20,350 nt of DNA from a virus. Below, in pieces: positions 15,054 to 19,247 of this stretch. Below the pieces are notes generated by a model. It made no database searches. It was not told where the DNA came from and was given only the letters and a program-made list of their open reading frames with translations. Location: IMG/VR virus record IMGVR_UViG_3300044859_001695, positions 1-20,350 of that record. One strand, 5' to 3'. How positions within the stretch are numbered: the stretch's first letter is position 1; each line of letters begins with the position of its first letter. The position numbers and the translations under genes are program-made.

Positions 15054-15566
15054 ATGACAAGTCCACAAAAAGCCAAGGGCGGCAGTTTCGAGCGAGAGAT
15101 AGCACAAATGTTATCTACTACATTTGGTGAATCTTTTATTCGAGCGCCCAGCAGTGGGGCATATGTGGGCGGGTCAAACAAGGTACGAAAAGAAATATTA
15201 CATCAAGGTCAAATCAGGGCATTTAAGGGTGACATAGTTCCAGGGGAAAGTTTCAGCAAAATGAATGCAGAATGCAAAAGTTATGCAGATTTTCCCTTTC
15301 ACCAACTATTTACAGGCACAGTTAAGGTTTTAGACACATGGATCGATCAATGTATGGAAGTAGCTGATCAAGGTGATTTCAACATTTTATTCATGAAGTT
15401 TAATCGTAAAGGCACATATACAGCAATTCAAATCAGACACCAAGTCAATTTAAATTTAGGCTCACATATAATATACAATAGTAAAAATCATGGCACTTGG
15501 GCATTTTTAGATCTTAATTTTTTCATTAATAATAATCAAGAACAATTTAGGCTTCTTTGTAAGTAA
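15054..15566 (+). CDS. PD-(D/E)XK nuclease, Holliday-junction-resolvase-like
   Basis: The 170-residue protein fits the PD-(D/E)XK nuclease fold. It has an N-terminal acidic helix KGGSFEREIAQML (Glu13), then FKGDI with Asp60 and NAECKSY with Glu73-Cys-Lys75. D...E-x-K with a 12-residue gap is the metal-binding catalytic pattern. An N-terminal GSxFERE helix followed by GDI and ECK is seen in archaeal Hjc and RecU-type resolvases and related phage enzymes. It lies 34 bases after gp46. A likely role is cutting recombination or replication junctions before packaging, the job T4 gives to endonuclease VII (gp49), which is not seen here. Another PD-(D/E)XK endonuclease role remains possible. No clear Shine-Dalgarno site is seen. 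Confidence 0.72.
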   Translation: MTSPQKAKGGSFEREIAQMLSTTFGESFIRAPSSGAYVGGSNKVRKEILHQGQIRAFKGDIVPGESFSKMNAECKSYADFPFHQLFTGTVKVLDTWIDQCMEVADQGDFNILFMKFNRKGTYTAIQIRHQVNLNLGSHIIYNSKNHGTWAFLDLNFFINNNQEQFRLLCK

Positions 15567-15569
15567 ATA

Positions 15570-15905
15570 GGCGCTGTTTGGTCGAGGTTGCTCGACTCCC
15601 ATTGAGATTGCCGAGGTAAGGCTCGTTGCCATCAGAACTTGGGTGCCAAAGGTCATGGCTAACTTAAGGCTTAAATGATCGAGGCTCTGTGAAAAAGATA
15701 CAACCTCAACTCATAGGATCTGGTCTAACCACAGATCACTAGGGTACCGTTGATAGATGCGAATGCTGTTTAAGGGGGTACAGGTCAACCGCCTCCGTTC
15801 TGTATTCAATACAGTGAAAGACTTTGGTAGATGGTGGTGCAACTCGGATGAAGCACAACTCTTTTCGCCCGGCGGACGGGCGAATTGTGGCAGATTAATC
15901 TGGAT
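15570..15905 (+). ncRNA. Candidate structured noncoding RNA of unknown class
   Basis: This stretch is visibly richer in G and C than its surroundings (about half G+C in 15841-15900) and dense in perfect hairpins. They include GTCGAG/CTCGAC (15581-15596); GTTGCCAT paired with ATGGC-T-AAC, enclosing TTGG-GTG-CCAA (about 15625-15662); GAGG/CCTC with inner TGT/ACA (15681-15707); GATCTG/CAGATC (15717-15737); GTACC/GGTAC (15744-15781); CTGTA/TACAG (15800-15814); and TTCGCCCG/CGGGCGAA with loop GCGGA (about 15864-15884), extended by CACAA/TTGTG. Loops read on the plus strand are A-rich (GAAAAAGAT, GTGAAAGAC), which favours this strand as the RNA. It follows the nuclease gene, so it may be transcribed from that operon or from its own promoter. 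I see no hallmarks of tRNA, tmRNA, RNase P, group I or group II introns. Ends are approximate. Confidence 0.6.
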
Positions 15906-15915
15906 GAATCATTAG

Positions 15916-15954
15916 AAAAGAAAAAAAATATAACTTGAACGAAGTGAAAGTTAT
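15916..15954 (-). terminator. Intrinsic terminator of the gp26 operon
   Basis: Read leftward, the minus strand has ATAACTT paired with AAGTTAT (15930-15954), then eight T residues (15921-15928) and four more after one C. This is a standard intrinsic terminator layout, although the stem is A/T-rich. A second perfect hairpin, AGATGTAC-TTC-GTACATCT (15955-15973), lies just before it. It ends the minus-strand transcript that carries gp26 and the 75-residue gene, and shields the RNA candidate from antisense read-through. Confidence 0.75.
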
Positions 15955-15973
15955 AGATGTACGAAGTACATCT
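15955..15973. repeat. Perfect hairpin next to the terminator
   Basis: AGATGTAC, GAA, GTACATCT form an 8-bp stem with a 3-base loop. The ACGAAGT at its centre also occurs in the loop of the adjoining terminator hairpin, 22 bases away, so the two may derive from one repeated element. Confidence 0.7.
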
Positions 15974-15992: not shown

Positions 15993-16220
15993 TTAAAAGA
16001 ATGGGAGGCCCGATTTATTTGTGGTTTCCATATTACTTTTAATTAATTCCATAATATGTTTTCTATCCATGGGACTAAGATGTACTATTTCACTATATGT
16101 AATCCCACCTCTCATATACCAACACATTTCAATTAAATTTTTATTAATGGCTTTTGAATCTGAATCCATTTCATCTAATAATTCAACAATTTTTTCATTA
16201 CTTAGATTCAAAAGCCTCAT
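15993..16220 (-). CDS. Small tail/baseplate assembly protein with WYMRGG motif
   Basis: The 75-residue protein starts inside the stop of gp26: ATGA shares bases, which implies translational coupling. Residues about 33-50 read CWYMRGGITYSEIVHLSP, then DRKHIMELIKSN and a C-terminal ETTNKSGLPFF. This arrangement (helix, YMRGG turn, DR helix, Thr-x-Lys-x-Gly-x-x-x-F end) resembles small proteins encoded next to hub-assembly genes in marine T4-like phages, as I recall them. It may be a chaperone acting with gp26, perhaps filling the role of T4 gp51. I cannot prove that homology. The overlap with gp26 and the terminator downstream make it a real gene. Confidence 0.7.
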   Translation of the reverse strand: MRLLNLSNEKIVELLDEMDSDSKAINKNLIEMCWYMRGGITYSEIVHLSPMDRKHIMELIKSNMETTNKSGLPFF

Positions 16221-17077
16221 TCGAAAAAATGACTAGTCTCAAAATTTAACTCAGTGGTATATTCTTTTTCACATTCTTCATTTTGACAAATTAATTTAAC
16301 AACTTTTTGTTGTTCTATTTCTTTATTAATAGTTTCTATTCTTTGCTTTACTGTTTCCCATATATTTTTTTCGCAATTTGTAAAAAATTCCTGAATTAAT
16401 GCTTCATTGGTCACCACTTGCTCTGTATTATTAGCATTAATTTTTATGGCACTGACAGCTTTACTTAAATTATCTACAGTTAAAGTTAATAGCCTGTTGA
16501 ATAGTTCAGTAAATTGTTTTGTTTTTTCATCTTCTGAGATTTTTTCATCACCAACTATAGCCAGTAATCTTTGTTGTTCATACAATTTCATACTTAAATT
16601 ATTATAAGTTTTATAGTTTTGTGGTTTTAAATAGAACTCTAGATCATTTATTTTTATGGTAGTATCATAGTCTGGGCATACATTAAATTTGTCAATAATT
16701 GCACTAAGATTAATAGCATGCTCATTTTTGTTTTTACAATGTGGGCAGATGCTAAAAAATTCCATAGAGTTGCCATATGTAGCTTGTCTAATGCTTATTA
16801 AAATTGTATCTAAATCTACCATGGGCATTTCCCATGCATTTTTAATAGAAGGGATACAGCTATGTATTACCTCAACTGTTCCTTGGCCGTTCATTAAAGC
16901 ATCTGGTGTTTTAAATAATATTTCATCTTTTGCAGTCATGGAAAATACGGCTAATTCGTTATTAGGTGGCATTTCCAAACTGCCAGTGGGATAAAACCTA
17001 CCTTTACTGGGTAGTTTTATATAAATTTGTGGCTGTCTAAAGTATTGGCGTAATGGATTTGTTGAACTGTCAGTCAT
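16217..17077 (-). CDS. gp26: Baseplate hub assembly protein gp26-like
   Basis: The 286-residue protein begins with a short disordered stretch, then IYIKLPSKGRFYP and a GQGTVEVIHSCIPSIKNAWE block. CPHC at residues 111-114 and C264/C269 near the C-terminus could form a split zinc site. Its second half has predicted helices, including SMKLYEQQRLLAIVG and a Lys/Glu-rich segment. Marine T4-like phages carry proteins of this kind annotated as hub subunit gp26, which in T4 is needed to assemble the central hub and is about 208 residues. The assignment rests on overall resemblance and on context with the coupled small gene and nearby tail genes. It is divergent from the tape-measure gene across 61 bases. 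Confidence 0.65.
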   Translation of the reverse strand: MTDSSTNPLRQYFRQPQIYIKLPSKGRFYPTGSLEMPPNNELAVFSMTAKDEILFKTPDALMNGQGTVEVIHSCIPSIKNAWEMPMVDLDTILISIRQATYGNSMEFFSICPHCKNKNEHAINLSAIIDKFNVCPDYDTTIKINDLEFYLKPQNYKTYNNLSMKLYEQQRLLAIVGDEKISEDEKTKQFTELFNRLLTLTVDNLSKAVSAIKINANNTEQVVTNEALIQEFFTNCEKNIWETVKQRIETINKEIEQQKVVKLICQNEECEKEYTTELNFETSHFFE

Positions 17078-17138: not shown

Positions 17139-19247
17139 ATGGCAGCAATTGACGACCAAATTCAACAGCTTGCAAACAGTTTACAAATAACTGGCAATGC
17201 ATTTAATGACTTATTAGCTGGACTTGTTCAAGTTAACAATGCCAACCAAGCTGCAGCAAATAGTACTTTAAAAAATGTAAATGCAAGAACAATTGAAAAT
17301 GAGTTATTACAGAAGCGTGAGGAGCGTGAGCAAGCTGTAATAAAAGCAATGACTACCTTCGGTAGTAGTTTAGGTAGATCTATCAGTGGGTTAGGTAGTT
17401 TTAGTTCAGCTTTATATAGCGCAACTACGGTATTTGACACAGCAAGAATTACTTTAGATACATTTAATGACATATTCAAAGCTGTAACTAAAATTGTTGC
17501 AGATAGTATGGGAATTTTTAGATTTTTTTCCGGAGCAGGAGATGTATTAAAAAATATTGCTGATAGTGGTGTTGAGTTAGCTATAAATGCTTTAAAGAAT
17601 AGAATAGAACAAGCAAGAATTATTACTGATACATTTCAAAGTTTATCTAAATCTGGTGCAACTTTTGGTGGATCTATTGCACAGCTAACAGATGCAGCTA
17701 AAGGTGCAGGGATTAATTTGCAAGAATTTGGAAGATTTATAACAGCCAATGTACAAAATTTAGTAGGATATGGGGCTAGTATTAGTCAAAGTGCGAAAAT
17801 TGTTGGGCAATTAACTAGAACAGTGGGAGAGTTGGATCCTGCATTATTGGCAATGAAAGGAAGTTTAGGTGTTTTAGCTGAAAGTACTACAGAATATCTT
17901 GCATTACAGCGAATGATAGGAAGAAACGAACTGAATGATTCTAGATCAACTTCTGAAGCAGTAAGGCAATATATAAGAATGCAAAATGAATTAACAGAAA
18001 TTACAGGTCGCAATGCTGGTGAACAAAGACTGGCAGAACAAAGACGCAGAGAAGTTGCAGCTTATCAGATGGCTATGGACAAATTAGAAAAGGAAGATAG
18101 GATTCGTGCTTCTGGTGTATTTGAAATTTTTGATCAATTTGGGGCTGATTTTTCTGCTGCAATGCAGGAATATTTTGCAAACAATGGACAAATGATAAAT
18201 GCTCAAAATATAACATTTGCTACTAATAATAGAGAACTTTTTGATATGGGTGTTGCTATGTTGGGCACTATAAGACAGCCCACTGAGCAGTTCAAAACAT
18301 CTATTGGAAAAATTGCCCAAGATTTTAGTCCGGCGTTAAGAGCACAACAATCAATGTTAGATCAACAAGGAATGAATATGCTAGCGGCAAGTAAGGTTGG
18401 TGGGCCTGTTGTAGAAATGCAGGGTAGAGTTGCTGCCGCTTTTAATAAATTTATAGTAAATTTTGAAAATTTGGATAAAATTCTTGACAGAGTAAGACAG
18501 GAAGCAGAGGGAGCAGGCAGACCTGGACAAACTGAGAGAACTATAGCAGATTCTATAAAAATACAAAATGAATTAAAAGCAAAATTAGATGACTTGGCAG
18601 TAAAAAATATACAAACTCTGCCTACAATAATTCAAGCTGTGGACAAAATATCTACAAAACTAGTAGAATTTGAATCTGGCATTGCCGATGTTGCAAACGC
18701 AATAATCAGGGGTGATGGGGTAATACCTGCATTAAAGGAATTTAAAAATAAATTAAAAGAAACTATAGAAATTCTTTTTGATGGATCTGGTGGGCAGCGG
18801 CCACCAGCTGCATTACCCCCAACACCGCGTGGTGTTGTAGCTGGTATGTCCGAAGAACAACTTACCGCTAGACTTGCGGAATTACAAGAAAAGATTACTA
18901 CTTTACGCGAAGTAAGAACACAAGAGACTGATCCAGCGCAAGAAGCTGAATTTGGTAGACAACTAATCCAACTCAGAACAGAGATTGCAACAATTAATAG
19001 ACAGAGACAGGCCAATAATCCCCCGGGTCAGCAGGAAGGTGGTATTGCCACTGAGCCAACTATAGTAGGTGAGAATAATCAACCTGAAGCAGTTATCCCA
19101 TTAGCTAGAGGTTCTATACCTTTAAATATTAATTTTGACCCAATGTTAAGGATTCTAGAACAACAAAGAGAGTATTTAGAAGAAATATTAAGTGCAACTG
19201 AAGACAATTCAGATTATTTAGAACGCATTTACCACGCAACTGCCTAA
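17139..19247 (+). CDS. Tail tape-measure-like protein
   Basis: The 702-residue protein is mostly helical and Ala/Gln/Ile-rich. Central stretches such as MGIFRFFSGAGDVLKNIADS and GGSIAQLTDAAKGAGINLQE are typical of tape-measure proteins. A Pro-rich linker (about 550-562) leads to a coiled coil (about 570-627). Then comes GGIATEPTIVGENNQPEAVI followed by PLARG; a G-G-I-x-x-x-P-x-x-x-G-E...E-A-V-I-P-L motif is widespread near tape-measure C-termini. It ends with a helical tail. The protein would fill the tube lumen and set tail length, as gp29 does in T4 (590 residues). At about 1.5 angstrom per residue it predicts a tail near 100 nm. The sequence is not obviously T4 gp29-like, so I call the role rather than the ortholog. 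The portal gene follows after 33 bases. Confidence 0.75.
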   Translation: MAAIDDQIQQLANSLQITGNAFNDLLAGLVQVNNANQAAANSTLKNVNARTIENELLQKREEREQAVIKAMTTFGSSLGRSISGLGSFSSALYSATTVFDTARITLDTFNDIFKAVTKIVADSMGIFRFFSGAGDVLKNIADSGVELAINALKNRIEQARIITDTFQSLSKSGATFGGSIAQLTDAAKGAGINLQEFGRFITANVQNLVGYGASISQSAKIVGQLTRTVGELDPALLAMKGSLGVLAESTTEYLALQRMIGRNELNDSRSTSEAVRQYIRMQNELTEITGRNAGEQRLAEQRRREVAAYQMAMDKLEKEDRIRASGVFEIFDQFGADFSAAMQEYFANNGQMINAQNITFATNNRELFDMGVAMLGTIRQPTEQFKTSIGKIAQDFSPALRAQQSMLDQQGMNMLAASKVGGPVVEMQGRVAAAFNKFIVNFENLDKILDRVRQEAEGAGRPGQTERTIADSIKIQNELKAKLDDLAVKNIQTLPTIIQAVDKISTKLVEFESGIADVANAIIRGDGVIPALKEFKNKLKETIEILFDGSGGQRPPAALPPTPRGVVAGMSEEQLTARLAELQEKITTLREVRTQETDPAQEAEFGRQLIQLRTEIATINRQRQANNPPGQQEGGIATEPTIVGENNQPEAVIPLARGSIPLNINFDPMLRILEQQREYLEEILSATEDNSDYLERIYHATA

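Follow-up and report, generated by a model that had tools for sequence, protein, structure and literature searches.

Comparative sequence analysis of a structured RNA from T4-like phages that is related to Polynucleobacter-1 and carries two heptamers changing in concert

The RNA motif Polynucleobacter-1 (Rfam RF01718) was listed by Weinberg et al. (2010) as a candidate from Burkholderiales, fresh water or estuary, and is mentioned once in the full text of that article (PMC2864571). In phage ICP1, abundant orf-less transcripts have been reported (PMC7567579). Here we analysed a 20,350-base IMG/VR fragment (the window), which belongs to a T4-like myophage by its gene content: it has genes for a gp6-like wedge protein, a late sigma factor, SbcD/SbcC (gp47/gp46), a PDDEXK_15 nuclease and a gp26-like baseplate protein. 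Judged by its homologs, the RNA encoded behind the nuclease gene is a divergent relative of Polynucleobacter-1, a new variant with another 5′ module.

The stretch 15570–15905 had been picked out in an initial annotation of the window as G+C-rich and free of any convincing gene, and both attributes were upheld. Its G+C content is 0.45–0.49 against 0.25–0.35 in most flanking windows, a 52-aa ORF at 15757–15915 found no support, the stop-free runs on its plus strand are shorter than in shuffles, and the majority of the indels among homologs are not multiples of three, which is a noncoding pattern. The start of the stretch could be kept, while its end had to be moved, since the conserved element reaches ~15912 and two more hairpins extend to 15973 (table). 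These hairpins probably mark where the transcript ends or act as a bidirectional terminator; they lack a U-run, and a pattern search found no terminator-like site there. Just upstream of the RNA, before hairpin P1, short direct repeats of the TAGGCAC type are present in L146 and L183 (three in L183), and where these repeats stand the window has TTTAGGC and ATAGGCGC (15548–15575), a possible promoter or processing signal. Further along the window, 17139–19247 encodes a 702-aa protein with no PHROG or Pfam match; Pseudomonas phage PA5oct has a virion structural protein there, before the portal gene.

Table. Coordinates of the RNA, its parts and its neighbouring genes in the window
Feature	Position	Strand	Remarks
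PDDEXK_15 phage endonuclease	15054–15566	+	RusA-like in PHROGs; usual upstream neighbour of the RNA
Structured noncoding RNA, class A of the extended Polynucleobacter-1 group	15570–15912 (ends approximate)	+	Based on homologs, covariation and G·U pairs
Hairpin P1, GGTCGAG/CTCGACT	15580–15597	+	Stems of at least 5: own arms 91%, swapped arms 20%; P1 also in class C RNAs
5′ module	15598–15643	+	Helix P2, CCCA (15598–15601)/TGGG (15640–15643), around hairpin P3; P2 with double-sided changes
Hairpin P4, GAGG/CCTC	15681–15707	+	Inner TGT/ACA; conserved GAAAAAGAT loop
Hairpin P5, GATCTG/CAGATC	15717–15737	+	Loop is the 5′ arm of helix D; pair 15719–15735 at E = 0
Pseudoknot helix A, 5′ strand GTTGAT	15749–15754	+	Double-sided changes
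Helix B, GGGGGT/GCCTCC	15774–15796	+	Loop with GTCAAC (15784–15789), the 3′ strand of helix A; universal core GGTACMGNNNNACCGCCTC
Hairpin H, CTGTAT/ATACAG	15800–15814	+	Arm swap, covarying pairs
3′ strands of helix C (with 15768–15771) and helix D (with loop 15724–15730)	15819–15831	+	
Twin heptamer, copy 1, GGATGAA	15846–15852	+	CTC in front
Strong hairpin P8, TTCGCCCG/CGGGCGAA	15864–15884	+	Between both heptamers
Twin heptamer, copy 2, GGATGAA	15902–15908	+	TCT in front
Two conserved 3′ hairpins, ATAACTT..AAGTTAT and AGATGTAC-GAA-GTACATCT	15930–15973	.	Same pair in classes A, B and C
75-aa ORF (orf75)	15993–16220	−	Convergent neighbour, conserved
T4 gp26-like baseplate protein	16217–17077	−	

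Using the nuclease as bait, we fetched 80 viral loci, more than 40 of which keep a noncoding stretch directly behind the nuclease gene. Scanning IMG/VR with the core string of helix B brought in further loci, and the RNA is now represented in at least 374 loci, a number that includes several loci per contig in some cases. At least 289 of them are full length, comprising 156 of class A (the window type; 94 non-redundant) and 133 of class B. Sequence comparison thus indicates that this folded noncoding RNA is common to hundreds of large T4-like freshwater phages. Three RNAs and two core consensus strings were run by blastn against 50,697 GenBank phages and gave no real match, the one in pf16 being due to chance. 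The matches of a pattern scan of bacterial genomes were also chance, nhmmer confirming none, and the intergenic regions of PA5oct, Phosso and Salicola SCTP-2 had no sequence match to the RNA. The collections consist of viral contigs in which hosts are not named; a hint of Betaproteobacteria as hosts comes from the original source of Polynucleobacter-1 and from the 168-kb contig G118, which carries a permuted tmRNA of the betaproteobacterial type (L578:14592–14992; RF01850, 145 bits; tag ANDSVYSLAA). The G118 phage also has a cluster of 27 tRNAs.

At most loci the RNA is flanked by SbcC and the nuclease on one side and by orf75 and gp26 on the other, and it starts no more than ~30 nt past the nuclease stop codon. 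This position, together with the absence of a convincing promoter of its own in the window, would suit a cis element, that is, a structured 3′-UTR, a processing signal or a terminator of the nuclease mRNA. We regard such a role as quite improbable. The copies in L017, L018, L047 and L119 lie ~0.7–1 kb from the nuclease or elsewhere, with no canonical neighbour gene found near the RNA of L119; one phage has four dispersed copies; and a pseudoknotted fold of 340 nt would be superfluous for a plain terminator. Moreover, relocated copies may bring a promoter with them, as a perfect sigma-70 sequence (TTGACA-17-TATAAT) lies 50–80 nt upstream of the RNA in L119 and L356, so some copies can be transcribed independently.

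Folding of the single sequence gave minimum free energies with z = −1.0 (plus strand) and −1.5 (minus strand) relative to shuffles and, at z about −1, was dropped as evidence for structure. Despite this chance-level energy, the structure is real by the measure of covariation, which was looked for among the homologs and is present. We assessed it with an approximate analogue of R-scape, in which substitutions inferred by Fitch reconstruction on a FastTree tree are redistributed along the branches, using 60 null alignments. Among the 94 non-redundant class A RNAs, significant covarying pairs fall in P4 (15681–15707 and 15682–15706, E = 0 of 60 null alignments), P5, helix B and helix C (15768–15821, E = 0), and the column pair 15610–15623 of the 5′ module covaries as well. 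Swapping arms between sequences strongly supported P1, hairpin H and the long-range helix D (own arms 7.74, swapped arms 4.85) and supported helix C weakly. Of the seven or more stems counted initially, which by energy are no better than chance, several are real (GGTCGAG/CTCGACT, GAGG/CCTC, TTCGCCCG/CGGGCGAA and CTGTAT/ATACAG). The bulged GTTGCCAT/ATGGC-T-AAC helix was not retained: it is lost in L013, L014 and L036 and competes with the CCCA/TGGG helix, which shows double-sided changes. Nor was the proposed pseudoknot between a GCGG loop and CCGC, as the loop of the P8 hairpin differs in relatives (e.g., GCAAC).

A different pseudoknot, of the H type, is strongly supported by the aligned sequences. 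It joins the two strands of helix A, the second of which lies in the loop of helix B. In a pair count, 98.7% of its pairs were standard, and 35 double-changed cells were found against 8.1 ± 2.2 after shuffling (0/500); when the partner was slid as a control, there were at most 2. Two near-invariant G·U pairs, 15776–15794 (90/94 class A RNAs) and 15779–15791 (93/94), would be C·A on the minus strand, which identifies the plus strand as the RNA. Together with the covariation, these pairs strongly support the plus-strand noncoding RNA originally proposed. No sign was found of a ribozyme-like fold, which had been offered as one option. As far as alignments can show, the product of the locus is a stable, structured RNA of the plus strand, ~340 nt long, in which exchangeable 5′ modules are joined to a 3′ core with a pseudoknot.

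RF01718 was not matched in the window at the gathering threshold or at E ≤ 5, nor across the record at E ≤ 10; membership is set at a covariance-model score of 37 bits, and the window RNA lies below it. GOLLD, ROOL and other large RNAs had no Rfam match in the window, and tmRNA, tRNA, RNase P and group I/II introns had none by Rfam or ARAGORN. No Rfam family matched in the window, but the RNA is not without relatives, for its 3′ half is shared with RNAs that bear RF01718. These class B RNAs occupy the same genomic slot, have RF01718 as their 5′ domain (98–121 bits; matches over all 141 positions, 103–121 bits) and have the same 3′ core and twin heptamers; the class A HMM detects them over the core with E about 1e-13 to 1e-21. 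Two natural hybrids were found. In L195, a 5′ domain of the RF01718 type (97.9 bits) is followed by a hairpin and core that resemble class A; in L182, an A-type core comes after a 5′ stretch, CACTATCCTTAACAGGACG, that resembles class B. Because class B shares both the slot and the 3′ half and two hybrids join the halves, RF01718 covers only a part of a modular phage RNA that is ~330–440 nt long. That the window RNA and Polynucleobacter-1 form one larger phage RNA group is well supported on this comparative basis. Class C RNAs, in the same slot, combine the P1/P2 module of the window and the two 3′ hairpins with a different middle (L023, L041, L043, L044, L049, L056, L059, L061, L063, L074, L075 and L079–L081). 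They have covarying helices of their own and, among the members scanned, no Rfam match, and one identical-letter column pair flanks their hairpin (L061 RNA positions 307 and 365). The hybrids and the sharing seen in class C indicate that the slot holds a mosaic RNA whose 5′ modules and cores have been exchanged. A short curated motif, Polynucleobacter-1, is accordingly one module of a larger RNA in hundreds of T4-like phages.

Other RF01718 matches were of a different kind. The 302-kb contig G012 (L330, L146) has two RNAs in one phage, the second with an RF01718-like 5′ domain (35.5 bits), a different middle, the same 3′ module and the twin motif GCATGAA instead of AGATGAA. We rejected the 35.5-bit match as an intermediate between classes A and B, as it belongs to this second, separate RNA. 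A low-scoring match in the L007 record was due to chance and lies elsewhere in the contig. Across 67 genomes of one bacterial family RF01718 was not matched, and no positive control matched there either.

The 3′ part of the RNA contains a feature absent from the initial annotation, two heptamers that change together. They occur in more than 20 forms (AGATAAT, GGATAAT, AGATGAT, GCATAAT, GTCGGAA, ACGAAAT and others) and are equal to each other in 257 of 276 unique RNAs, or in 264 if only the first six letters are compared. The triplets in front of them, CUC for copy 1 and UCU for copy 2, differ from each other and never vary. On trees built with the motifs removed, ~100 substitutions fall in both copies on the same branch. 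In class A, the two copies underwent 22 + 22 changes at position 0 (21 matched), 17 + 17 at position 4 (14.5 matched) and 13 + 12 at position 6 (11 matched); in class B, there were 18 + 19 at position 0 (17 matched), and those at positions 1, 4 and 6 were matched in full (7/7, 11/11 and 8/8). Changes of the base after the heptamer (+7) were unmatched. The motif finder has a bias, in that it picks the best-agreeing anchored site pair in each RNA; the alignment-based column test is free of site choice and places the column pairs 15846/15902, 15850/15906 and 15852/15908 at E = 0, among its strongest signals, with identical letters rather than base pairs. The heptamer also differs between paralogs of one phage as it does between phages, the scaffold staying the same, and the paralogs obey the identity rule: in the 327-kb phage G115, three copies have CGCAG/CGCAG and one has TGCAG/TGCAG. 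These sequence patterns suggest that both heptamers recognise the same partner. Two 7-nt copies that co-change ~100 times are an unusually clean signal, which any function must explain and which makes the function testable.

The four RNA copies of G115 (L560–L563) are dispersed, each in a noncoding cassette between the inverted repeats ATTATCTTTTAG and CTAAAAGATAAT. Such an arrangement, like the two copies of G012, might point to a mobile RNA element that spreads among phage sites without a function for the phage. This is very improbable, given that in most contigs examined the RNA is single-copy, sits in one conserved slot and is strongly conserved in structure.

Two equal sites flanking a rigid hairpin would suit a dimeric protein, and class C has a similar identical-letter pair around its hairpin; under this reading a single protein of phage or host origin (e.g., a homodimer) would bind at both heptamers as identical sites, with the RNA serving as its scaffold or as a decoy. 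We consider this unlikely, because the heptamer exists in many unrelated versions, has switched repeatedly even among close relatives, at a pace above that usual for protein specificity, and stays equal in its two copies where a degenerate site would allow them to diverge. CsrA-site, anticodon-loop, k-turn, boxB and T-box readings, judged from the motif variants alone, were dropped because most variants break them or because they do not require equal copies. Alternatively, the heptamers could touch each other like with like, in the fold or between the subunits of an oligomer as in GOLLD, ROOL and OLE; homo-oligomers have been described for large ornate RNAs (PMC12286853). Identity covariation of two columns with no third partner is indeed the pattern expected from direct contact. 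Antiparallel self-pairing, however, fails for most heptamer variants, and contact of this kind would need a run of seven like-with-like pairs involving all four bases, for which we know of no precedent, so that it seems rather improbable.

A search for the partner in phage sequence was negative. A third covarying column was found neither inside the RNA nor in its flanks (520 nt upstream, 800 nt downstream), and the RNA and its vicinity also lacked a third, complementary element. In nine phage contigs, neither gene starts nor any orthologous gene had an excess of the heptamer's complement; an apparent intergenic enrichment came largely from the two copies of the RNA itself. By a statistic that ignores phylogeny, the heptamer's own complement is depleted: it occurs 0 times between the heptamers where 5.7 would be expected, and 21 times against an expected 41 in the upstream kilobase (z −4.2). 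Avoidance of this kind would be predicted for accessible seeds, which should tend not to have complements in cis. Copy 1 is enclosed by stems of only modest quality and copy 2 by none. The observations fit best with trans pairing to a single partner that is not a conserved phage gene. We tentatively favour, at somewhat short of an even chance, a trans-acting RNA of the Polynucleobacter-1 group whose two 7-nt seeds pair with the same partner sequence. The folded scaffold would display one copy of the seed on either side of P8, and each copy would base-pair, presumably by Watson–Crick pairing, with the same sequence, probably in a host transcript or a non-orthologous phage transcript. One RNA could in this way bind two partner molecules or sites and act as a sponge or antisense regulator. 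It is also possible, if doubtful, that this is a new kind of phage RNA, in which a duplicated 7-nt guide allows fast re-targeting on a constant scaffold and the copies must match for bivalent pairing. To our knowledge, no such mechanism with matching duplicated guides has been described.

The window RNA shares features with several described systems. The Polynucleobacter-1 model (RF01718) spans just 141 nt of a ~360-nt RNA and includes neither the pseudoknotted core nor the heptamers. GOLLD and ROOL are likewise large, structured and phage-borne RNAs with no assigned function; the window RNA differs from them in having no Rfam match, in being about half their size or less, and in lying in a recombination/baseplate region with no tRNA by ARAGORN. 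The orf-less transcripts of ICP1 are, like it, phage intergenic RNA loci. In PA5oct, a cultivated relative, an unannotated 1.5-kb region with a candidate RNA likewise lies between nuclease and baseplate hub genes, but it has no detectable sequence similarity to the window RNA. Here (L326:5797–6803; NC_071039.1), about 850 nt between resolvase and baseplate hub are annotated with tiny ORFs only, TTGACA-17-TATAAT stands upstream and a strong 3′ hairpin downstream, and the stretch is likely an unannotated noncoding RNA of a cultivated jumbo phage. CsrB and the sRNA sponges resemble the window RNA in that a short, accessible motif recurs on a scaffold. Most heptamer variants, however, are not GGA-type CsrA sites, and here the motif itself differs among phages, the two copies always changing together.
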